From an uncultured Oscillospiraceae bacterium (GTDB lineage Bacteria > Bacillota > Clostridia > Oscillospirales > Oscillospiraceae), in NCBI GenBank assembly GCA_947626785.1, contig CANQTO010000032.1:1-33098 (forward strand): 33,098 bases of DNA, given 5' to 3'. Below the pieces are notes generated by a model. That model made no database searches. It had not been told where the DNA came from and saw only the letters and a list, made by a program, of their open reading frames with translations. Both the position numbers and the translations under genes were made by a program. Positions 22,591-33,098 of this stretch are shown piece after piece. Each line of letters begins with the position of its first letter. The stretch's first letter is position 1.

Positions 22591-22617
22591 TGAGCCGTTT
22601 TTCTGCTTCTTTGCGTC
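22591..22617 (+). promoter_or_regulatory. ECF-sigma-like promoter of the mini tail-protein gene
   Basis: TGAGCC (22591-22596) followed by GTTTTT, 11 further bases, then CGTCTTAA (CGTC at 22614-22617). The same boxes at the same 17-base spacing precede the large surface protein on the other strand (28652-28678). The AAC/T-run plus CGTC style resembles extracytoplasmic-function sigma promoters. Confidence 0.6.
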
Positions 22618-22650
22618 TTAACTTATAAAAGGACAAAAATGGAGGGAGCT

Positions 22651-22989
22651 ATGATGAAACGGGCGAGGAGGATCCTGGTATTTGCGCTGACGCTTCTGCT
22701 GCTCTTCAGCGGGATCGGCGTCTCCGCGGCGCTGGCCGCCGGGGACGAGGGCGCGGCCGCCGCGCCGGCCGCGCGGGCTGAGAGCGGCCTGATCGTGGTC
22801 GAGAACAACGACATCACCATTTTCGAGGAGAACGTCCCGCTGGCCGCCGGCCCGGAGGGACCCTGCTGCGTGCTGCACCTGCTGCTCCTGTCTCTGGCTC
22901 TGCTGGCGGAGCTGATCTGGACCGGCGACGACCGGAAGCTCCAGCGGGAGGAATTTGAGCTCCGCTCCCGGCTGAAAGAGCGGGGATAA
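22651..22989 (+). CDS. Mini surface protein: signal peptide plus the Cys-Cys/LHL membrane-tail cassette
   Basis: A 112-residue protein of unknown function. A signal peptide (about 1-30) is followed by only about 45 exported residues. Then comes the same C-terminal cassette as in the two large surface proteins: DITIFEENVPLAAGP, Cys-Cys-VLHL, a membrane span, and the charged tail DDRKLQREEFELRSRL. It is in effect the cassette without the repeat domains. It might act as a partner, spacer or decoy for the machinery that handles the large proteins. The start at 22651 is preferred because GGAGGGAG precedes it; an ATG at 22639 overlaps that site. It is convergent with the large-protein operon and has the ECF-like promoter. 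Confidence 0.8.
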   Translation: MMKRARRILVFALTLLLLFSGIGVSAALAAGDEGAAAAPAARAESGLIVVENNDITIFEENVPLAAGPEGPCCVLHLLLLSLALLAELIWTGDDRKLQREEFELRSRLKERG

Positions 22990-23007
22990 AAACAGAATAA
23001 AGATGCC

Positions 23008-23042
23008 AACGCCCCCGGACGGTCTGTCCGGGGGCGTTTTTT
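23008..23042 (+). terminator. Terminator after the mini surface protein gene
   Basis: Perfect 13-bp GC-rich stem (23008-23020 with 23026-23038, GGTCT loop) followed by a T-run on the plus strand. Confidence 0.92.
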
Positions 23043-23054
23043 GCGGCGCATGCC

Positions 23055-23240
23055 TTATGCCTTTTTCCCTTCGGGCTTGGGGGCATCGACGGCCTCGGCC
23101 AGCTCCTCCTCCAGCTCCTTCTGGCGCTTCTTCTGGTTGTGGATATGGACGATCAGAACAACGACCATGACCACAAAGACGATCAGGGCCAGCAGGTCCC
23201 AGAGGCAAAAGCCGAACGACGTGTGAAAATACTGGTGCAT
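23055..23240 (-). CDS. 61-residue single-span membrane protein, copy 1
   Basis: A small protein of unknown function that starts MHQYFHTSFGF, has one span from CLWDLL to about residue 33, and ends in a charged cytoplasmic tail HNQKKRQKELEEELAEAV plus a Lys-rich end. There is no signal peptide; topology is probably N-out, C-in. The Cys at the span entry and the H-x2-KKRQKE after it match the C-terminal cassette of the large protein encoded just upstream (HDRKKRQKEEFE), so the two may interact or share processing. GGAGGAG precedes the ATG. A second copy at 28991-29176 differs by only two residues near the N-terminus. Both copies follow a large surface-protein gene. Confidence 0.85.
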   Translation of the reverse strand: MHQYFHTSFGFCLWDLLALIVFVVMVVVLIVHIHNQKKRQKELEEELAEAVDAPKPEGKKA

Positions 23241-23278
23241 TTTTCTCCTCCTTTAATCCTTTGTTTTGACGGACGCCG

Positions 23279-23308
23279 CCCCTGCATGGCCAAAAGGCCA
23301 TGCAGGGG
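23279..23308 (-). promoter_or_regulatory. Conserved spacer hairpin between large and small genes, copy 1
   Basis: Perfect 13-bp stem (23279-23291 with 23296-23308, 4-base loop) without a T-run. The copy at 29207-29236 has a compensatory pair swap (T23287-A23300 versus A29215-T29228), which argues that the RNA fold matters. It could be a processing or stability element setting the ratio of the two products. Confidence 0.75.
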
Positions 23309-23361
23309 TGGGTCTGCTTAGATCATTTACCTATTTTTTCTGTTTTTGCCGGGCTTCGGCC

Positions 23362-26300
23362 TCAGACCAGCTGGAAGCGGGTCTCGAACTCCTCTTTCTG
23401 CCGTTTCTTCCGGTCGTGGGTGTAATAGATGGCGACCGTCAGAGCGCAGAGCATGATGATCAGGTGCAGGATGCAGCACTGGCCGATGGTAGGCGCGGCG
23501 GCCAGAGGCGTCTCGTCCTGGTCGATGGTCACTTCACCGGCGTCCTCATTCACCTGGAGATCCTGGGGGCCGGGGGCCAGAGGCACCGGGTCGTCGTCAA
23601 CGACGACACCGGCGGGGGCGGCAGGAGCCGCCGGAGCGGCCGGGGCCGCGGGAGCAGGAGCCGCAGGAGCCGGGGTGATGGTCAGAGTGCCGGGGACATA
23701 GGTCACGATGTAGTTGCCCTGGACCGCGTCGCCGACAGGCGTGACGGCGTAGGTGCCGGCAGCCTCGCCGGGAGCCCGGTCAAAGTCGTAGTCCAGCAGG
23801 TCCGCGGGGTCCTCGCCGTTGACCATACCGGTCACAGTGGTGGTGAAGCCGGGATCGCCCGCGCCGGCCGCCTTGGTGGCGTCATTGACGGTGACGGTGA
23901 CAGGGGCGGGGGTGATGGTCAGCTCAGCGGGGACATAGCTCACGGTGTAGTTGCCCTGGACCGCTTCGCCGGCGGGCGTCACATCGTAAGCGCCCACGTT
24001 CTCGCCGGGCTCACGGGTCACGTCGAAGGCAAGGACGCTCTCGTCGTCGCCGGCCACCAGACCGGCCACGGTCACATCGTCCCAACCGTCGGGATCAGCC
24101 GCGCCATAGACCTTGGTGCTGTCCGCCGCGGTGACGGTGACAGCGGCCGGGGTGATCGTCAGGGCAGCTTCTCCCACACGGACATTAAACTGGGCGGTAA
24201 CATCGTTGCCGTTGGGATCTGTCACCCTTGCGGTGCCGGTGACCGCTACGACGACCGTACCGGCGTTGGTGGCGCTGGCCCCGGCGGTCAGCCCGGACAC
24301 GGTGTATTCCACGCCGTTGAAGGTGAAGGTGGAGGCCTCAAAGCCGCTGACGCTGTGGGGGCCGCCGTCATAGGGGAAGGTCCCGCCGTTGGGCTGCATG
24401 GTGATCTCGAACCTCTCCGCATCGCTGCGGTCGGTGACGGTCAGGTCGCCGAACTCGGTGCTGATCTCATAATTGCCAATGACGCCGGTCGTCGTGCCCT
24501 CTTTCAGCGTATAGGTGAAGGCGTTTTTCGCGCTGCCGGGCAGCGTCTGGCTGCCGGAGAAGCTGTAGCTCTCCACGCCGTCTTCACCCACAAAGCCCAT
24601 ACCGCCGACAGTCACTGCCGCGTCGCCGTTGGTCAGCGCCGTGCCGTCGTAGGCCTTGCTCAGGGTCGCGCTGGTCAGGGTCACAGGCCGCGGGTCAATG
24701 TAGAGCCTGAGGGCTATTACGCCGGTGTAGTTGGCCGTGACGTCCTCGCCGGCCTTGTTTACGATGGTGACTAAGTGGACGGTCTCACCCTTGCGCCTAT
24801 CCCAGCCATTGGGGAACGAATTATTCCAGGAGCTATACCGGCCGATGGTCCTGTTTGTATCGGAATCAAACAGGGTCTCGCCATTGACATAGGTCAAATG
24901 GTCGCCATCGACAAGCTGCATATACACGGTCGTGTCAGTAGATTTCGGGTTCGGATCTTTTACAAGGTCCTCGAGGTTTTCCGCAGTGGCGGTCACCTGA
25001 TGCACCTCGCCGTCGTATATGAAGTGTTCCTCGGTGTAGAGGTAGATCGGGCGCTGGGTGATCTTATAGGTGCGCTCAACAGTGCCCTGATAGTTGCCCT
25101 CACCGGTGACGGTCACGGTGATCTTGTCGTTGGTTTTGTCTTTGTCTTTGAGGTTGTTGGCGTTCACGAAGTCATCGGTGCTGTAAGAGACCGAGTAATC
25201 CTTGCCCTCTTCCAGCGCAGCGCCGGTCTTGTCGGTGACTGTGGGCGCCCACTTGTGCTCCGTGCCGTCGTACATGGTATCTTCAGGATAGTCGACCACG
25301 AAAGCATCCTTGGCGTCCGCCCGGGTGATGGTGAGCAGGCCGTTCTTCTCGACGACCGTCACGTCATAGTTTTTAGAGCTGACAGTGAAGCCTTTGCCCT
25401 CAACGACTACCGGGTACTCGCCCTGGTTCGTGCCCTTGGCCACGATCTCATTCTGGCCGGGGCCCTTCAGCTTCATGTCGCCTTTCAGGCCATCCACCGT
25501 GTACCCGCTGATGCTCTGCTCTTTACCATTGTAGACCTTGGTATCGCTCACGCCGGTGACCGTCACGATCGCCGAGGCTTTGGTAACGACCAAATCTCCA
25601 CATTGGTTAGGAACTATTTGATAGTCGCTCTTCTTTGCGCTGCCATTCCAGGTGACAGTGATGCCGTTGCCTCTTTGTACTCTACCGACATTTGTTATGC
25701 TGATCTGCTGGGAGGTGAGGGTCACGGTCTCGCCGTCCACCAGGCCGCCTACACGGCCATCGGCAGGAACCTGATAATACGGCTGCTTATTTGGGTTATA
25801 CTCGGAATACTGGGCGTAGAAGTCGCTGTAGTCGCTGCCCACAGTGATCTCGCCGCCGGCCCACAGAGGCGTGCCGTCATAGACCTTCTCCAGTGTCGGG
25901 CTGACGAAATAGATGGGCCGGGGCAGCACCTGGAGGGTGCCCGGGTCATAATTGATGTCATAGTTGCTTTCCTTGCCCTTTACAACCACAGCGTCGAAAT
26001 CATTCGACTTGAAGCCCACGTGGATGAGATGCTCCGGCTCCCAAGTGGTATCGAGGTATTTCGAGGGGAATGTGTACTGGAGCTCGTCGCCTTCCACAAG
26101 GCCAAGGAAACCAACATTCTGGGCATACTCCGGCAAATCATTCCAGTTGATCTTGACGTCTGACCGATCGTTCCCAATGAAAATGTGCACATTGGGAGCT
26201 GTCAGTTCCGTGCCGTCATAAACCTTGGTAGCATCATCAGAGATCAGGTAGATGGGCCGCGGGTAGATCGTAAAGTTGACCTGCGCCGTCACTTCAGGCA

Positions 26301-28557
26301 GGTTGCCGGTAGCCTCCCAAGTGGCCCGAACTTTATAGTCATTCGCGTCTTTGGGCTCTTCCGTGGTCCATTCCGCGTTGTTTTTAACGGAATATTCTAT
26401 CTTTGGAGCGGCATAGCCTTCCGCGCCCGGGCCTTCAATGCCGGCGGTCACGTCGGGTTTCTTTTCGCCGTAGATCCAGCTCTCCTGGCTGACGGAGGGG
26501 GTGTAGTCGCTCGCCGGGGCGGTGATCGTCAGCTCGCCGGGGACAAATTTCACATAGTAATTGGAGAGGATCTGTTCGTCGACGGGAACGTCGCCGATAG
26601 CGCCAATGCCCGTGAATTTGCCCACTTTGAGGCCGCTGTTATTGTCGGCCACATAGAGCTCGTGCGTGCCGGGAAGCTCGCTGTCCTCCCCCGCCGCGCG
26701 GGCAATGTGGTGCCGGTCAAGAATTCCCTGGATAGCCTCGACCGTGTCTTCACCCTTCAGGCCGCTTACATCCCAGGAGAACGCGGGGTCACCTTCGCCA
26801 TATTTCTTTTCCGCATTCTGTACTGTGACGGTCGCCGTTGCGGGCACGACGCTTATAAAGATATTGGCGGTGATGGACAGGTTCATGGTCACGTCGCGCC
26901 CGGTTTCGTCGACGATCTTGACCTGATCCACGCCGATGCCGCAGCCCCTGGTGATGCCTGTCGGGGTGCGTCCATTTTCATCCCTGGTATTGGTAAAGGC
27001 GTCTTTTAGGGTCGCGCTCTCCGTCCACTTGGTGATCTTTCCCATCTGGGGGTCGGAGTTCTCCTCACTTATGACGTCCGTCAACGTGAGCCAGGGGATT
27101 GGAGTCGTAGCATCCTGGACCGTATACTCGCTCACATCTTTCCCGGGTATGTACGTGTGCGATTGGCCGTCATACTCATACTGCTTGGACGCGCACAGAG
27201 CTATGATCCAAGGCTGGATCTTATACGTCAGTATTGCAACATTGCCGTCATAGGCATCAATGCCTTTGACAGTGAACTTGAAGGTGCCCATGTCCGTGTA
27301 GAAATACTCCGGATCACTCTCTGGGCCGAACCAAGTAAAGTTCACATTCGCGTCCTGAAGGGAACGCACGCTGCTGGTCTTCTGGATATCTAATTCGTAG
27401 TCCGTCCCCTCAGTCAGAACTTCGCCTGTCTTCGAGTCCTTAACGACAGGGGTCTGTTTGTGCTCCTGATTGTCCCAGGTAAAGGTACTCTGCGCGAAGG
27501 GATCGACCGTAAAGGACGCTCCGCCGCCGAAATAGACTTTTATTTCAACGACCGTTCCCAACTGATCCTTTGTGAAGGGAAAGGACCAGGCAATGGCGGG
27601 CGAGCCGTCATACTTTACAGCCTCTGGTACCTCTTTCCCGTCAAGCTCCCACTTGATGACCGAATAACCATCTTCTGCGTTGGCGTTGAACTTGCACGAT
27701 GTCGAATCGTTGTTTCTAAACGAGCTCTCACCTATTACGTAAATAAGCTCTTTGCCTATGGTTTTCTTGTTATTAATAGTGTACTGCATCTGCCCCGGGC
27801 CTTCAGCGATCAGATGTACTAAAATCTGTTTGGTGTCTGCTATGCCATCGCCATTGGTGTCGGGGACGCAAACGGCCTTGACTGTGTGATTAGCACTGAT
27901 ACTATTAAAGTTTGCTCTCTGGTAGTTTTTGACTTCGCCGTCGATCGTCAAGGTCTCAAGAACATATCCCTCTTCAGGAGTGAACCTGATGGTAACAGAT
28001 TTTCCGGCTTTTACAGAGAACACTCCGTTGTCGTTGGGAATCTCGGATTTGTCGCTCTGCATTTCTCTGCTTGCCGTGCAGTGTTCAGTCTCGACCGTGA
28101 TAGTATAATACTCCTCCGCCGCCGGAGCAGGCTCATCCAGAGCCACTGCCACCGGCTCGCCGGCCGGAGCCTCGATGGTCGCCGGCTCGGCAGAGGGTTC
28201 CTCAGCAGGCTCCTCCGCGGGGACCTCTTCCTCCGCGGGCTCCGCCGGAGTCTCCTCCGGCTCTACCGGAGTTCCCGGAGGGGCTACAGGGACCGCTTCC
28301 GGGTCCGCCGGGGCTTCCTCCGCCGGGGCGGTCGCGGAAGGCTCATCAGAGCTCTGTTCTACAGAGCTCTGAACGGAGACGTCTCCGTTCGCCGCGCTCT
28401 CATCTTCTGTTTTCTGCTCCTCCGGGGCGGGCGCCTGCGCCTCGGCGACGGCCGGGTCCGCGCCGGCGTTGGCCGCCATGGCGATCGGACTGCCCAGTTC
28501 ACCGAAGAGCATCAGAAACACCAGGGCCAGGGCCAGAAAACGCTTTGCTGTTTTCAT
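23362..28557 (-). CDS. Giant MBG/YDG-repeat surface protein with Cys-Cys/LHL membrane tail
   Basis: A 1731-residue exported protein. A signal peptide (1 to about 29, ending near PIAMA) leads into a Pro/Glu/Ala-rich low-complexity stretch to about 150. A beta-rich region with a calcium-site-like DTNGDGIADT follows, then many Ig-like repeats with YDGT/VYNGK motifs (for example TKVYDGTEL, EKVYDGTPLW, SKAYDGTAL) and MBG-like units (TKVYGAADP, TKAAGAGDP). These fit the YDG/MBG families found in adhesins. A Pro-Ala linker (about 1628-1650) precedes the cassette: VTIDQDETPLAAAP, Cys-Cys-ILHL, a membrane span and HDRKKRQKEEFETRF. No LPXTG is present at the C-terminus. The start at MKTAKRF follows GGAGGAG. 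It probably forms an operon with the 61-residue gene downstream. Ligand unknown. Confidence 0.85.
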   Translation of the reverse strand: MKTAKRFLALALVFLMLFGELGSPIAMAANAGADPAVAEAQAPAPEEQKTEDESAANGDVSVQSSVEQSSDEPSATAPAEEAPADPEAVPVAPPGTPVEPEETPAEPAEEEVPAEEPAEEPSAEPATIEAPAGEPVAVALDEPAPAAEEYYTITVETEHCTASREMQSDKSEIPNDNGVFSVKAGKSVTIRFTPEEGYVLETLTIDGEVKNYQRANFNSISANHTVKAVCVPDTNGDGIADTKQILVHLIAEGPGQMQYTINNKKTIGKELIYVIGESSFRNNDSTSCKFNANAEDGYSVIKWELDGKEVPEAVKYDGSPAIAWSFPFTKDQLGTVVEIKVYFGGGASFTVDPFAQSTFTWDNQEHKQTPVVKDSKTGEVLTEGTDYELDIQKTSSVRSLQDANVNFTWFGPESDPEYFYTDMGTFKFTVKGIDAYDGNVAILTYKIQPWIIALCASKQYEYDGQSHTYIPGKDVSEYTVQDATTPIPWLTLTDVISEENSDPQMGKITKWTESATLKDAFTNTRDENGRTPTGITRGCGIGVDQVKIVDETGRDVTMNLSITANIFISVVPATATVTVQNAEKKYGEGDPAFSWDVSGLKGEDTVEAIQGILDRHHIARAAGEDSELPGTHELYVADNNSGLKVGKFTGIGAIGDVPVDEQILSNYYVKFVPGELTITAPASDYTPSVSQESWIYGEKKPDVTAGIEGPGAEGYAAPKIEYSVKNNAEWTTEEPKDANDYKVRATWEATGNLPEVTAQVNFTIYPRPIYLISDDATKVYDGTELTAPNVHIFIGNDRSDVKINWNDLPEYAQNVGFLGLVEGDELQYTFPSKYLDTTWEPEHLIHVGFKSNDFDAVVVKGKESNYDINYDPGTLQVLPRPIYFVSPTLEKVYDGTPLWAGGEITVGSDYSDFYAQYSEYNPNKQPYYQVPADGRVGGLVDGETVTLTSQQISITNVGRVQRGNGITVTWNGSAKKSDYQIVPNQCGDLVVTKASAIVTVTGVSDTKVYNGKEQSISGYTVDGLKGDMKLKGPGQNEIVAKGTNQGEYPVVVEGKGFTVSSKNYDVTVVEKNGLLTITRADAKDAFVVDYPEDTMYDGTEHKWAPTVTDKTGAALEEGKDYSVSYSTDDFVNANNLKDKDKTNDKITVTVTGEGNYQGTVERTYKITQRPIYLYTEEHFIYDGEVHQVTATAENLEDLVKDPNPKSTDTTVYMQLVDGDHLTYVNGETLFDSDTNRTIGRYSSWNNSFPNGWDRRKGETVHLVTIVNKAGEDVTANYTGVIALRLYIDPRPVTLTSATLSKAYDGTALTNGDAAVTVGGMGFVGEDGVESYSFSGSQTLPGSAKNAFTYTLKEGTTTGVIGNYEISTEFGDLTVTDRSDAERFEITMQPNGGTFPYDGGPHSVSGFEASTFTFNGVEYTVSGLTAGASATNAGTVVVAVTGTARVTDPNGNDVTAQFNVRVGEAALTITPAAVTVTAADSTKVYGAADPDGWDDVTVAGLVAGDDESVLAFDVTREPGENVGAYDVTPAGEAVQGNYTVSYVPAELTITPAPVTVTVNDATKAAGAGDPGFTTTVTGMVNGEDPADLLDYDFDRAPGEAAGTYAVTPVGDAVQGNYIVTYVPGTLTITPAPAAPAPAAPAAPAAPAAPAGVVVDDDPVPLAPGPQDLQVNEDAGEVTIDQDETPLAAAPTIGQCCILHLIIMLCALTVAIYYTHDRKKRQKEEFETRFQLV

Positions 28558-28651
28558 AGGCTTACTCCTCCATTTCTTCTGCCACAAAAAATTTTTCGTT
28601 CTTCAAGGGGCCCGGGAAAGATCCCGGCTTTTATCCTCTTCTACTTATTAA

Positions 28652-28678
28652 GACGAATAGAGGCGCAAAAACGGCTCA
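28652..28678 (-). promoter_or_regulatory. ECF-sigma-like promoter of the giant surface protein
   Basis: Minus strand: TGAGCC (28673-28678), GTTTTT, 11 bases, CGTCTTAA (CGTC at 28652-28655). It is identical in boxes and spacing to the promoter of the mini tail-protein gene. The transcription start would be about 28643, giving a leader of about 85 bases. Confidence 0.6.
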
Positions 28679-28715
28679 TTTTTTTCAAAAAAAGCTCAAT
28701 TTTTTGCTCAAAAAA

Positions 28716-28775
28716 TTAGAAATTCCGCCTCTGTGCGTAGTTTTCTTCGCAAGCCGAAAGCTTTTCCTTGCGCAT
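28716..28775 (-). CDS. Possible 19-residue leader peptide
   Basis: Minus strand: AAAAGGAGG (28787-28795), 11 bases, then ATG and an open frame of 19 codons (MRKEKLSACEENYAQRRNF) ending TAA. It lies upstream of the ECF-like promoter of the giant gene. The ribosome site abuts a 9-bp hairpin (28753-28761 with 28779-28787) that would enclose the start codon. Coding status is unproven; it may instead be part of a small RNA. Confidence 0.2.
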   Translation of the reverse strand: MRKEKLSACEENYAQRRNF

Positions 28776-28809
28776 GACGCTTTCGGCCTCCTTTTAAACC
28801 ACCGCTTGT

Positions 28810-28838
28810 ATCATACAGCGCTCCTTTCGAAAAATCAA
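28810..28838 (-). promoter_or_regulatory. Sigma-A-like promoter in the region upstream of the giant gene
   Basis: Minus strand: TTGATT (28833-28838), 17 bases, TATGAT (28810-28815). A transcript from here would cover the possible leader peptide and A/T-rich hairpins with three TGAGC copies (28674-28678, 28694-28698, 28706-28710) before reaching the giant gene. Confidence 0.45.
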
Positions 28839-28922
28839 GGAGAAGCTTTAAAAAATCTTTATAAATCTTGTAATTTCTGGAAATCCCGGCGGGCGGTGAT
28901 CTTCTGAAGCTCTCTTAAACGC

Positions 28923-28970
28923 AAAAAGGGGCAGCAGCTCGACCTTTCGTCTTGCTGCTGCCTCTTTTTT
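28923..28970. terminator. Terminator after small membrane gene copy 2
   Basis: Stem around GGCAGCAG/CTGCTGCC (28923-28937 with 28955-28970), with an A-run on the left and a T-run on the right. It is usable in both directions and closes the second two-gene unit. Confidence 0.8.
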
Positions 28971-28990
28971 TCCGGCTCATGTCTTGAACC

Positions 28991-29176
28991 TTATGCCTTT
29001 TTTCCTTCGGGCTTGGGGGCATCGACGGCCTCGGCCAGCTCCTCCTCCAGCTCCTTCTGGCGCTTCTTCTGGTTGTGGATATGGACGATCAGAACGACGA
29101 CCATGACCACAAAGACGATCAAGGCCAGCAGGTCCCAAAGGCAAAAGCCCAGGTTGGTATGAAAGTACTGGTGCAT
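28991..29176 (-). CDS. 61-residue single-span membrane protein, copy 2
   Basis: Nearly identical to the protein at 23055-23240 (MHQYFHTNLGFCLWDLL against MHQYFHTSFGFCLWDLL). The span and charged tail are unchanged. It lies directly downstream of the second large surface-protein gene, behind the same GGAGGAG site and the same kind of spacer hairpin. Conservation of the protein in both copies, while the large upstream proteins have diverged outside their C-terminal ends, suggests it works with the shared C-terminal cassette. An in-frame start further up would add 15 residues encoded by the hairpin region and is not favoured. Confidence 0.85.
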   Translation of the reverse strand: MHQYFHTNLGFCLWDLLALIVFVVMVVVLIVHIHNQKKRQKELEEELAEAVDAPKPEGKKA

Positions 29177-29206
29177 TTTTCTCCTCCTTTGTTTTGACGG
29201 ACGCCG

Positions 29207-29236
29207 CCCCTGCAAGGCCAAAAGGCCTTGCAGGGG
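29207..29236 (-). promoter_or_regulatory. Conserved spacer hairpin, copy 2
   Basis: Perfect 13-bp stem (29207-29219 with 29224-29236), the counterpart of 23279-23308 with one base pair swapped in a compensatory way. No T-run on either side. Confidence 0.75.
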
Positions 29237-29289
29237 TGGGTCTGCTTAGATCATTTACCTATCTTTTCTGTTTTCGCCGCATTCCGGAC

Positions 29290-32200
29290 TCAGACCATCT
29301 GGAAGCGGGTCTCGAACTCTTCTTTCTGCCGTTTCTTCCGGTCGTGAGTGTAGTACAGGGTGACCGTCAGAGCGCAGAGCATGATGATCAGGTGCAGGAT
29401 GCAGCACTGGCCGATGGTAGGCGCGGCGGCCAGAGGCGTCTCATCCTGGTCGATGGTCACTTCGCCGGCGTCCTCATTCACCTGGAGACCCTGCGGGCCG
29501 GGGGCCAGAGGCACCGGGTCGTCGTCAACGACGACACCGGCAGGGGCGGCAGGAGCCGCGGGAGCCGCAGGCGCGTCGGGAGCCGCGGGGGCCGGGGTGA
29601 TGGTCAGGGTGCCGGGGACATAGACCACGTTGTAGTTGCCCTGGACCGCGTCGCCGACAGGCGTGACGGTGTAGTCGCCGGCATCCTCGCCGGGAGCACG
29701 GTCAAAGTCGTAGTCCAGCAGCTCCGCGGGGTCCTCGCCTTCGACCATACCGGTCACGGTGGTGGTGAAGCCGGGATCGTCCGCGCCGGCCGCCTTGGTG
29801 GTGTCATTGACGGTGACGGTGACGGTGGCGGGAGTGATCCGGTAGGTCCGGGTCACGGTGCCGCCATAGTTGCCGGCGCCTTCGATGGTCACAGTGATCT
29901 CATGCACGTTGGTGAAGTCCTCGGTGTCGTAGCTGACCGTGTAGTCAACGCCTTCCTCCAGAGTCCTTCCGGTGACAGGATCGGTGACTGTCGGGGCCCA
30001 CTGGTGCGCGCCGCCGTCATAGACCACGTCGTCGGGGCTGTCGATCTGGACATCGCTGTAATAGGGCTGCTCGGGATCGATGGGCTGCTCCGGCTCATCC
30101 GGGTTTTCAGGATCGGTCCCGGGGACCTCCGGGTCGTTGGGATCGATGCTCTGCGGGGCGATGTTCAGGCCGCCGTCGGTGACATTCACGGTCACGTTGC
30201 GGAAGTCATTCTCGCCCACGGTGAAGTCGTCTGCCGTCAGGCCCATGGGATAGGAGCCCTGCTCAGTCTGGGTGACGCTGGCGGCGCCGGTGGTGATGCT
30301 CACGATATCCGTCGCGGCGCTCTCGCCATCCACGGTCACGGAGGTCACGTCGAAGCCCGCGGCGGTCTTAGGCGTGCCGTCATAGACATAGCTGGCGGTG
30401 TGGCCGGCCACATTGATGACCAGATCCTGCTTGTAGTCGGGGATATTGTCGCCGTTGTCGTCCTTAGCGAAGTGGGCGGTGTAGACGTAGATCATATCGC
30501 CTGCGGACTCGAAGCTCTGCTCCAGAGCCGCCTCGCTCTCGATCGCTTCGCCATTCAGATCCCAGTAATCGAAGGTGTAGCCCGTATTCGCAGTAGCGGT
30601 GGACTTGGCGTTCACGATGCCGCTCTCGGCGTTGTCCTCGAAGGTGGTCACGTAGCTGCCCTCGGGATCAACGCTGCCGTTGGCATCGGCCACGTAGCTG
30701 ACCTTCACCTGGTACTTATCGGGAGTGCCGTCGCCAGGATCGGGCTCGGTCGGGTCGGGATCGGTGGGATCGGTGGGTCCGATCTCATCCTTGGCGAAGT
30801 GGGCAACATAGGTGATGGTGGTGTCGCCCGGGACATTTTCCAGAATCTCGCTCAGCTCCGCGCCGGAGGCGATCCGCTCGCCGTCCTTGGTCCAGTAATC
30901 GAAGGCAAAGCCCTCAGCCGCAGACGCCACGGAGTGGACCTCAACGGTGCCGCTCTCGGCGTTGTCCGCGAAGGTGGTCACGTAGCTGCCCTCGGGATCG
31001 ACCGTGCCGTCGCCGGCGCTGGCGTAGACGACCTTCACCTGGTACTTATCGGGAACTCCGTCGCCAGGATCGGGCTCGGTCGGGTCGGGATCGGTGGGAT
31101 CGGTGGGTCCGATCTCATCCTTGGCAAAGTGGGCGGTAAAGGTGTAGGTCTCGCCGCCCTGGGCTGCAATGCTCGTCAGCAGGGACGCGCCATTAGGCAG
31201 CTTATCTCCGTTGAGATCCCAGAAGTCGAACGCGAAGCCGCTGTTCGGTGTCGCCTGGCCGTTGATCACCAGGTTGGTCTTCTCTTCGTAGTGGCCCTTA
31301 GTGCCGAGCGTCCAGACGTCGATGCCGGTCGGGGTGGTGGTGCCATTGCCGTCATCGGCAAAGATGATGGTCACCTGGTACTTATCGGGGATACCGTCGG
31401 GCTTGTTGTCGGGACCGATCTCATCCTTGGCAAAGTGGGCCGTGAAGGTGTAGGTGCTGCCGCCCTCGGCGGTGAAGCTCTGGTTCAGGGCCTCGCTGTT
31501 GGGATCATCGATCGTCACACCCTCGTCAGCGGTCCAGCCGTCGAAGGCATAGCCCTCAGCCGCCGCGGAGTTAGCGGAAGCGGTAACGGTGCCGTTGGTC
31601 TGCTTGTCGCCGGGGATGGTGAGCACTTCGCTGGTCTTGCTGACGCTGCCGCCCTCGACAGGATCAGCCACGTAGTTGATAGTTACCTGGTACTTGTCAG
31701 GAGTACCGTCGGGCTCGCCGTTCGGGCCCTTCTCGTCCAGGGAGTAGGTCACGGTGACTTCCTCGCCGTCTGCGTCCATCGTGCCGGTCACATTGCCGTC
31801 CACGGTATCCTTCGCATAGGTCTTGTCGCCAACCTCAATGCTGTCGGGGATCTGCTCGGTCACATCGTACGGGTCCTCGAACACGACGCTCTCCGTGTAA
31901 GGATCTTTGCCAAGGTCCGTTTCGTCGTCGGAAACAAACTTAACGGTGACGTTGAAGCTGTCCTTCACATAGCTGTAGGTGTAGACTTCGCCGTCCATGG
32001 ACTTCGTCACGGTGCCGGGAATTTCTTTATCCCAGTTGCCAGCCTTGTAGCCGGTGTCAGGATGATCGCCTGCGGTGGGAGCGTCGGTCGCAACGTCGGC
32101 CTTCGCGGTCCACGTGCCGTCCTCGGCCTGCTCAGCTATGGTGTAGTTCTGGGTGACCGTATTGCGGCTTTCATCGTTCCATGCGCCGTGCTCGACCTCG

Positions 32201-33098
32201 AAGGTCACGCTCACCTGGTACTTATCCGGCGTGCCGTCGGGCTCGTTGCCATCAGGTCCCTTCTCGTCCAGGGAGTAGGTCACGGTGACTTCCTCGCCGT
32301 CCGCGTCCATCGTGCCGGTCACCTTGCCAGCCACGGTCTCCTTCACATAGGTCTTGCCGTCAGGCGTCACTATGCTGCCGGGGATCTGCTCGGTCACATC
32401 GTACGGGTCCTCGAACACGACGCTCTCCGTGTAAGGATCTTTGCCAAGGTCCGTGCCGTCGTCGGAAACAAACTTAACGGTGACGTTGAAGCTGTCCTTC
32501 TCGAAGGTGTAGGTGAAAGCCTTGTCCCCGTCCTTGGTCACGGTAGCGGGAGTCTCGGGAGTCCAGTTGCCTCCGGTGTAGCCAGTGTCAGCCTGCATGC
32601 CGGTAGGAACGTGCTCCAGAATTACTTTGTTCTTCTCGACCCAGTTGCCGTTCTCGTCCTTCTCACCGAATACCACGTCCTCAGACTTCTGGGCCTTGTC
32701 GCTGCCGTCCCATGTGCCGTTTACTACGTCATAGGTCACGGTATCTTCGTACTTGTCGGGGATCTCGTTGTTGTCGTTGTCCGCGGTGTAGTAGACGTTG
32801 ATGGTGTCGCCGTTCTCGACGGTCCCGGGCGCCGGGCTCGGATCGACCTTCTCAAAGGTCCAGCCGTCGCCAAAATAGTTGTCGGTGTTGACGGAGCCAG
32901 CCTGTACGGTCAGGGTCGTCTGATCGGAGTTGACCCACACGTCCTCGGTGTAGTCTTGGCTGCTGACCTCTGCGCCATCCTGGAAGTACTTGACCGTGTA
33001 CTTCAGCTCCTTGGTCTGGCTCTCGTCCTTCACGTAGTACACGCCGATCACAGTCTCGTTATCAACCAGGCTGTCCTTCGCCGGTACGTCGGCCGGGT
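29290..33098 (-). CDS. Second giant repeat surface protein with Cys-Cys/LHL tail (5-prime end outside window)
   Basis: The frame stays open to the window edge, so the N-terminus and signal peptide are missing; at least 1268 residues are seen. From the visible N-side there are MucBP-like repeats (SFNVTVKFVSDD, with GKDPYTESVVFEDPYDVTEQ, seen twice). Divergent InlB-type repeats follow (GxVxPxGSYVTTF, then GFAFDYWTKDGE), separated by KYQV strands and Asp/Pro/Thr linkers such as PTDPTDPDPTEPDPGDG. A YDG unit (VVYDGGAHQWAP) and an MBG-like unit (TKAAGADDP) come next. The last 185 or so residues nearly match the first giant protein, including VTIDQDETPLAAAP, Cys-Cys-ILHL, the span and HDRKKRQKEEFETRF. 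Probable adhesin or surface-layer component; ligand unknown. Confidence 0.85.
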   Translation of the reverse strand, partial: PADVPAKDSLVDNETVIGVYYVKDESQTKELKYTVKYFQDGAEVSSQDYTEDVWVNSDQTTLTVQAGSVNTDNYFGDGWTFEKVDPSPAPGTVENGDTINVYYTADNDNNEIPDKYEDTVTYDVVNGTWDGSDKAQKSEDVVFGEKDENGNWVEKNKVILEHVPTGMQADTGYTGGNWTPETPATVTKDGDKAFTYTFEKDSFNVTVKFVSDDGTDLGKDPYTESVVFEDPYDVTEQIPGSIVTPDGKTYVKETVAGKVTGTMDADGEEVTVTYSLDEKGPDGNEPDGTPDKYQVSVTFEVEHGAWNDESRNTVTQNYTIAEQAEDGTWTAKADVATDAPTAGDHPDTGYKAGNWDKEIPGTVTKSMDGEVYTYSYVKDSFNVTVKFVSDDETDLGKDPYTESVVFEDPYDVTEQIPDSIEVGDKTYAKDTVDGNVTGTMDADGEEVTVTYSLDEKGPNGEPDGTPDKYQVTINYVADPVEGGSVSKTSEVLTIPGDKQTNGTVTASANSAAAEGYAFDGWTADEGVTIDDPNSEALNQSFTAEGGSTYTFTAHFAKDEIGPDNKPDGIPDKYQVTIIFADDGNGTTTPTGIDVWTLGTKGHYEEKTNLVINGQATPNSGFAFDFWDLNGDKLPNGASLLTSIAAQGGETYTFTAHFAKDEIGPTDPTDPDPTEPDPGDGVPDKYQVKVVYASAGDGTVDPEGSYVTTFADNAESGTVEVHSVASAAEGFAFDYWTKDGERIASGAELSEILENVPGDTTITYVAHFAKDEIGPTDPTDPDPTEPDPGDGTPDKYQVKVSYVADANGSVDPEGSYVTTFEDNAESGIVNAKSTATANTGYTFDYWDLNGEAIESEAALEQSFESAGDMIYVYTAHFAKDDNGDNIPDYKQDLVINVAGHTASYVYDGTPKTAAGFDVTSVTVDGESAATDIVSITTGAASVTQTEQGSYPMGLTADDFTVGENDFRNVTVNVTDGGLNIAPQSIDPNDPEVPGTDPENPDEPEQPIDPEQPYYSDVQIDSPDDVVYDGGAHQWAPTVTDPVTGRTLEEGVDYTVSYDTEDFTNVHEITVTIEGAGNYGGTVTRTYRITPATVTVTVNDTTKAAGADDPGFTTTVTGMVEGEDPAELLDYDFDRAPGEDAGDYTVTPVGDAVQGNYNVVYVPGTLTITPAPAAPDAPAAPAAPAAPAGVVVDDDPVPLAPGPQGLQVNEDAGEVTIDQDETPLAAAPTIGQCCILHLIIMLCALTVTLYYTHDRKKRQKEEFETRFQMV
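30701..31134. repeat. 330-bp-period tandem repeat in the second giant gene
   Basis: 30701-30804 recurs at 31031-31134 almost unchanged. It encodes the KYQV strand, the Asp/Pro/Thr linker and the start of the next InlB-like unit. Confidence 0.85.
31728..32500. repeat. Near-identical repeat pair encoding MucBP-like units
   Basis: 31728-31966 and 32258-32500 match closely, with differences concentrated in one short central segment. They encode successive units ending TYSLDEKGP. Confidence 0.85.

Follow-up and report, generated by a model that had tools for sequence, protein, structure and literature searches.

What holds a giant surface protein at the membrane when its C terminus carries a strict, cysteine-bearing tail in place of a familiar sorting signal? 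The question is raised by contig C32 (CANQTO010000032.1) of an uncultured Oscillospiraceae bacterium, taken from assembly GCA_947626785.1, which comprises 2.75 Mb in 98 contigs; bases 1–33098 of this contig are the whole stretch that we analyzed, hereafter the window. Three proteins encoded there, P1, P2 and P3, end in the same Cys-Cys tail, which is an unclassified C-terminal anchor. Directly downstream of two of them lie genes for a 61-residue membrane protein, the FHT/GFC protein, apparently a tiny membrane partner dedicated to the tail. We give an even chance to a reading in which the tail stays in the membrane as an anchor and pairs helix to helix with this small protein.

A Cys-Cys tail recurs in large exported proteins

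The original prediction held that P1 (112 aa), P2 (1731 aa) and P3 (more than 1268 aa) end alike, and reading and alignment of the three tails bore this out, with 24 invariant columns. P1 (22651–22989, plus strand) is a mini protein with little beyond a signal peptide and the tail (22810–22977, plus; DITIFEENVPLAAGP..CCVLHL..RKLQREEFELR); its length is counted from the second ATG and becomes 116 aa if translation starts at 22639. P2 (23362–28557, minus; length counted from ATG) is an MBG_2-domain surface protein (E = 6.4e-47) with its tail at 23365–23535 (minus), and P3 (29290–33096, minus) covers 1268 aa at the C-terminal end of a surface protein with MBG_2 and InlB-like repeats, with its tail at 29293–29463 (minus). 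The N-terminal part of P3 apparently lies on contig C73 (L028, 1–4189), where a frame runs off the contig end within the residues that open P3 in the window. The proposed terminal motif, RK-x-Q-x-EEFE-x-R, is literal in P1, whereas P2 and P3 read KK-R-Q-K-EEFE-T-R. A model built from these three tails scored 146 bits for P3, 145 for P2 and 123 for P1, and a DNA pattern for CC-[IVM]-[LF]-H-[LF] matched three times in the 2.75-Mb genome, each time at one of the P1–P3 tails, against no match for the reversed-pattern control; we rejected chance on this basis.

The tail is not confined to these paralogues. It recurs as a family in large exported proteins of other genomes, as had been anticipated: 16 tails in 7 genomes, comprising P1–P3, two each in G079 (with G495 counted as G079) and G001, one each in G497, G499 and G546, and six in G498. 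The CC pair is invariant in seven aligned tails and present in 12 of the 16 overall. The PLAA segment, by contrast, does not belong to the strict tail as first proposed, being absent directly before CC-I-LHL in the tails of G497 and G499.

A small membrane protein is encoded beside the tail

Two further, weak matches to the tail model (E = 0.02 and 0.03) fall a short distance downstream of P2 and P3, inside 61-codon genes that are each preceded by a GGAGG stretch. These are small-B, downstream of P2 (23055–23240, minus; 109 bits to the small-protein model), and small-A, downstream of P3 (28991–29176, minus; 106.5 bits), and their product reads MHQYFHTxxGFCLWDLLALIVFVVMVVVLIVHIHNQKKRQKELEEELAEA... 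Across genomes the small proteins have 57–84 residues, a single helix and the pattern MHxYFHTxxGFCxWDLL...QKKRQ. The gene is conserved as a protein, because differences at codon positions 1, 2 and 3 number 653, 352 and 1016 (all pairs, 10 of the 15 small genes) and small-A and small-B differ at 12 nucleotides but only 2 residues. At several loci the longest-frame listing had picked an overlapping antisense frame in its stead. No NCBIfam or Pfam family reached its cut-off in the three small proteins scanned, and no relative was found among the viral contigs and plasmids searched. Solved structures offered no useful relative, the match to 7udk, a designed repeat protein (E = 6.6e-7), spanning 21 residues of the charged helix. 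Open-licence papers showed nothing on either the Cys-Cys tail or the small protein, and the strings CCILHL, CCVLHL and GFCLWDLLAL were unmatched in them.

A small gene adjoins 11 of the 16 tails on the same strand: P2, P3, both tails of G079, both of G001, those of G497, G499 (contig C4) and G546, the first on G498 contig C6 and the one on G498 contig C10. Conversely, 11 of the 15 small genes adjoin a tail, and the adjacency recurs in seven genomes. Gene order and number vary: in the G498 C10 unit the small gene comes first, with a promoter motif between it and the tail gene, and G001 has two small genes. The 3′ end of P1 faces small-B, and every genome with an unpaired tail carries a small gene elsewhere. 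Docking to a cytoplasmic partner had been one of the roles proposed for the tail; the recurring tiny neighbor comes nearest to that option, but it is a predicted membrane protein and not a soluble cytoplasmic one.

The set is rare and patchy

Within the genus of the window, the tail search (101 genomes) gave six matches at E ≤ 0.05, of which three, G000, G001 and G079, were convincing. On reading, G069 and G082 proved to be chance matches, and G103 a protein with a PLAA linker but a different end. The small-protein search (102 genomes) gave six matches at E ≤ 0.001 and the same convincing three, the remaining weak loci (L103–L105) being dropped after a motif check; tail and small protein thus occur as a set in 3 of about 100 genomes. 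In G001, a protein with many Cys-rich CTETGL/CSVCGE-like repeats is encoded beside the tail gene (L036, 6540–8288).

A small-protein scan of named genomes returned six loci in five metagenome-assembled genomes whose isolate names all begin with 'Lapin', French for rabbit, from which we infer a rabbit-gut source. One is called Gemmiger sp. and the others Oscillospiraceae or Clostridia bacterium; two of the six loci are those of G079 again. All five genomes encode small proteins and four encode tails (2, 1, 6 and 1), and when named genomes were scanned with a pattern for the tail, none of 233 stretches was confirmed as a relative. Six tails come from the Gemmiger genome, G498, and one of these belongs to a P1-like mini protein no longer than 125 aa; this protein (L128, 2339–2716) and P1 both have little beyond a signal peptide and the tail, and each is preceded by the promoter motif described below. 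Among 396 genomes of its family, only G498 and G546 yielded the small protein (E ≤ 1e-5; G680 was dropped for a PYTGD-type tail that lacks the cysteine). G546 was identified through a divergent small protein alone, and the gene immediately upstream of that small gene then matched the tail model (iE = 1.4e-11, 42 bits), ending in ...PLAGPARHEDCVMHHLILLAAFVLELIYL...

Order-wide searches used evenly drawn samples of 394 genomes. Tail matches at E ≤ 0.01 came from 15 genomes, of which only G000 was convincing; the other 14 loci (L048–L061), ten of which were read and some of which look YajC-like by eye, contained no CC-x-[LM]-H or GFC-x-W string. Small-protein matches at the same threshold came from 54 genomes, and among the loci checked again only G000 was convincing; the check covered 29 loci besides G000, the other weak matches having come without loci and not been opened. 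Altogether 32 weak loci (29 order-wide, L071–L099, plus the three of the genus) held neither tail nor small protein, with three stray CC-x-[LM]-H strings in two of them, by motif checks that are blind to members without the cysteine, like those in G001. The searches of genus, family and order therefore indicate that the system is rare, patchy and, by record names, present in more than one lineage.

Predicted topology and membrane-level cysteines

We assigned cysteine positions by a hydropathy scan and counted charges in the 15 residues on either side of the helix. A cysteine stands at the N-terminal, predicted outer, helix end in 14 of the 16 tails and 13 of the 15 small proteins; the only four chains without it all come from G001, two of them tails and two small proteins. 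This joint lack is the best hint of contact between tail and small protein. In 14 of the 15 small proteins no lysine or arginine occurs within the 15 residues that precede the helix, and all 15 have at least four in the 15 residues that follow it, a pattern that by the positive-inside rule predicts an N terminus outside, parallel to the tail, for which the corresponding counts are 0–2 before and at least three after (15 tails computed). The cytoplasmic end of the tail is a conserved mixed-charge helix, more than a basic cluster. In AlphaFold2 models the tail fragment forms a single long helix (residues 17–56, mean pLDDT 80.7), and the small protein has a short helix (2–8) followed by a long one (11–49; mean pLDDT 82.5). 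Pairwise distances among tails and among small proteins correlate over nine chosen pairs (r = 0.79, 30 of 20000 permutations), a set from which P3/small-A, as a near duplicate, and the second pair of G001 were omitted.

The two gene families usually lie side by side, are present in the same members of the genus, share a promoter motif before some of their genes, and carry the outer cysteine in both chains or, in one genome, in neither. Beyond this, we infer that both proteins are produced together, how they lie in the membrane, that they pair physically, that the tail is retained and how the cysteines are used. In the favored paired-anchor reading, the tail would be the retained C-terminal anchor of large exported surface proteins, with its N terminus outside, a single helix and a cytoplasmic charged helix. 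The tiny, co-produced FHT/GFC protein would share this predicted orientation, would place a cysteine level with that of the tail in the membrane and would have a similar charged helix in the cytoplasm, and the two membrane helices would associate. The surface protein may in this way be stabilized or held by a paired anchor instead of a sortase bond, and the cysteines might serve for an inter-chain disulfide, a metal site or shared acylation.

Several observations weigh against this pairing. The joint lack of the outer cysteine comes from one genome, in which both tails and one small protein have a cysteine deeper in the helix; elsewhere, the G546 tail has one cysteine rather than two and one G498 tail reads CDHH. 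Profiles of the tail and the small protein align over 14 columns only, in the charged segment (probability 72.5, E = 3.2e-5), and the two are consequently not clearly homologous. The distance correlation drops to r = 0.46 (1457 of 20000) without two divergent pairs, and shared ancestry alone could lie behind it. Five of the 16 tails have no adjacent small gene (P1, G498 C39, two on G498 C58 and the second on G498 C6), and four small genes are standalone in the stretches read (C3 of the window's own genome, G496 on a 5-kb contig, G498 C20 and G499 C12). G496 has a small gene, with no tail found at E ≤ 0.01. Finally, no promoter motif was found upstream of the genes examined in G001, G496, G497 and G499.

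Comparison with known sorting signals

The PLAA-x-P segment had been likened to the linker of LPXTG-type anchors, a relation that is supported: against NF033073 (LPXTG_double; cut-off 48 bits), P2 scored 29.9 and P3 30.8 bits, P1 gave no match, and the P3 PLAP linker alone scored 24.9 bits, itself below threshold. What is shared is a doubled acidic PLAP-type linker ahead of the C-terminal helix, seen in P2 and P3 but not in every tail. Unlike members of that family, the tails read have no LPXTG-like pentapeptide before the helix, and the CC-helix-charged end of P3, taken alone from Cys-Cys onward, had no match among 18950 NCBIfam models at E ≤ 1, which favors the original prediction. With most of the NF033073 match lying in the linker and the P3 core unmatched, the linker looks sortase-substrate-like and the terminal module is something else. 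We therefore rejected a plain sortase signal, for which the pentapeptide is lacking and the core unmatched, and likewise a classical lipobox, since the cysteine precedes the helix.

The window's own genome encodes seven sortases in six stretches. Five of these stretches, with six of the sortases, additionally encode a protein that ends in an LPXTG-like sequence; the stretch on contig C2 has no clear one. Contigs C59, C65, C47 and C31 (L030–L033) carry several pilus-like sortase clusters with LPxTGG-like proteins. The dedicated protease, acyltransferase or transpeptidase that had been expected to accompany the tail did not emerge: none was noticed in neighboring frames, which were read mostly by eye, the genome search having been made for sortases only.

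The nearest described layout to the Cys-Cys tail is, by analogy, MYXO-CTERM, a signature with an invariant cysteine, a helix and an arginine-rich cytoplasmic end; in its substrate TraA two cysteines are adjacent, and myxosortase, a CPBP protease, is required for cleavage (PMC11980579). The main rival to the paired anchor borrows from this system: an enzyme acting at the membrane surface would acylate the cysteine, and the helix would then be removed by an intramembrane protease, leaving the small protein as a chaperone or second substrate. The similar order of cysteine signature, helix and charged cytoplasmic end (cysteine and helix in 14 of 16 tails), the cysteine pair of TraA and the invariance of CC in seven tails would fit. 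Against this, MYXO-CTERM belongs to a Gram-negative phylum, and our tails have a longer, conserved mixed-charge cytoplasmic helix and a tiny neighboring membrane protein; no such enzyme was noticed near the tails by eye and by Pfam or NCBIfam scans of selected proteins, a weak argument in that CPBP, rhomboid and Lgt-like genes were not searched genome-wide. The P3 core is, as noted, without an NCBIfam counterpart, and scans of P1–P3 and of this core gave no MYXO-CTERM (TIGR03901) match at E ≤ 1, although inclusion of the model in the release was not checked. We regard acylation and cleavage of this kind as rather unlikely. GlyGly-CTERM with rhombosortase and PEP-CTERM with exosortase are likewise dedicated tripartite C-terminal tails; their signatures differ, and neither was among the NCBIfam matches.

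A candidate promoter shared by tail and small-protein genes

P1 and P2 are preceded by similar motifs, TGAGCC-N17-CGTC at 22591–22617 (plus) before P1 and its counterpart at 28652–28678 (minus) before P2, which align as ATGAGCCGTTTTT..GC.TCT.T.CGTCTTAA with 0 such matches expected in shuffles. We take their spacing to be that of extracytoplasmic function (ECF) sigma promoters. A relaxed form has six sites in the window's own genome and no match for a reversed-pattern control; these sites lie before P1, P2, the apparent P3 start on C73, the standalone small gene on C3, an SLH-domain protein on C3 and a predicted 213-aa frame on C31, so that four of the six head a tail or small unit. Across genomes, TG[AC][GA]CC-N16-18-CGTC stands upstream of 10 of the 25 genes examined, nine times as TGAGCC; the C in TG[AC] was allowed post hoc, once the G498 C20 gene had been seen, and the count without P1 and P2, the sources of the motif, is 8 of 23. 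Shuffling the base order of each upstream region (200 times per gene) gave the motif in 11 of 5000 sequences. Many of the genes without it are second genes of a unit.

Might the tail and the small protein instead form a surface sensor, signaling the state of the extracellular protein to an ECF sigma factor that transcribes their own genes? The motif before several units would suit such a circuit, as would G546, in which the region upstream of the tail gene holds an ECF sigma frame with regions 2 and 4, split by one in-frame stop (L136, 4971–5531), and a protein with one hydrophobic stretch, as judged by eye. The strict motif was not found in G546. Against the sensor, a sigma gene is seen beside a tail in that one genome, those near a G498 unit may be unrelated, and no signaling family reached its cut-off in the three small proteins scanned. 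We hold this sensor to be improbable, more so than MYXO-CTERM-like processing.

Less probable still is that the small protein belongs to a type IV pilus or type II secretion machinery on which the tails dock. Its GFxLWDLL recalls the pilin signature, G-F-x-x-x-[DE]-L-L at a hydrophobic start, and some neighborhoods are suggestive: in G496 a standalone small gene is followed by transglutaminase-like and T2SSF genes (L065, 1692–4591, by Pfam), the same order was seen by eye in G499 (L133, 2400–5375), and a T2SSE gene lies about 5 kb away in G498. But small-A stays far below the NCBIfam pilin cut-offs (ComGE, 20.5 bits of 49; ComGC, 15.1 of 75), and no such genes were noticed near the standalone copy in the window's own genome. 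A prepilin, moreover, has a cytoplasmic basic leader and an outside C terminus; the charge pattern of the small proteins is the opposite, and their predicted orientation is reversed. Equally hard to credit is an ordinary stop-transfer anchor of duplicated adhesins with an unrelated, hitch-hiking small gene: P2/small-B and P3/small-A are near duplicates with 95% identical tails, and the set is rare in the genus, but the adjacency extends over seven genomes, the small gene leads one G498 unit and occurs twice in G001, standalone small genes bear the same promoter motif, and the outer cysteine is lacking jointly in G001.

Other features of the window

Between the P2 stop and the small-B start lies a perfect 13-bp hairpin (23279–23308, minus; z = −5.6 for the 121-nt region), and another lies between the P3 stop and the small-A start (29207–29236, minus; z = −4.4 for the 113-nt region). 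Neither has a T-run, and one compensated base pair distinguishes the copies. Each is a possible attenuator or processing site and could set the ratio of large to small product. Between the convergent P1 and small-B genes, a GC-rich inverted repeat with a T-run (23010–23042) is terminator-like, as read by eye. Among the neighboring genes are those for Fe-S proteins, a molybdopterin oxidoreductase, an ImpB/MucB-type DNA polymerase, a flavin oxidoreductase and a methyltransferase.

Discussion

To our knowledge, dedicated C-terminal tails (LPXTG, PEP-CTERM, GlyGly-CTERM and MYXO-CTERM) are all paired with an enzyme. The Cys-Cys tail is instead paired with a tiny, easily overlooked membrane protein. 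More tentatively than the paired anchor itself, and at well under an even chance, we suggest a two-part anchor of an undescribed kind, in which a dedicated 60-residue membrane protein, instead of a transpeptidase or protease, would recognize the C-terminal helix of giant adhesins, facing cysteines would join or co-modify the two chains, a common ECF-type regulon would govern both, and the whole would be portable between gut lineages. A short sequence pair, a predicted contact through facing cysteines and a candidate promoter make both the partner and the lipidation ideas testable with small constructs. If true, the pairing would give gut commensals a further route to hold giant surface proteins.

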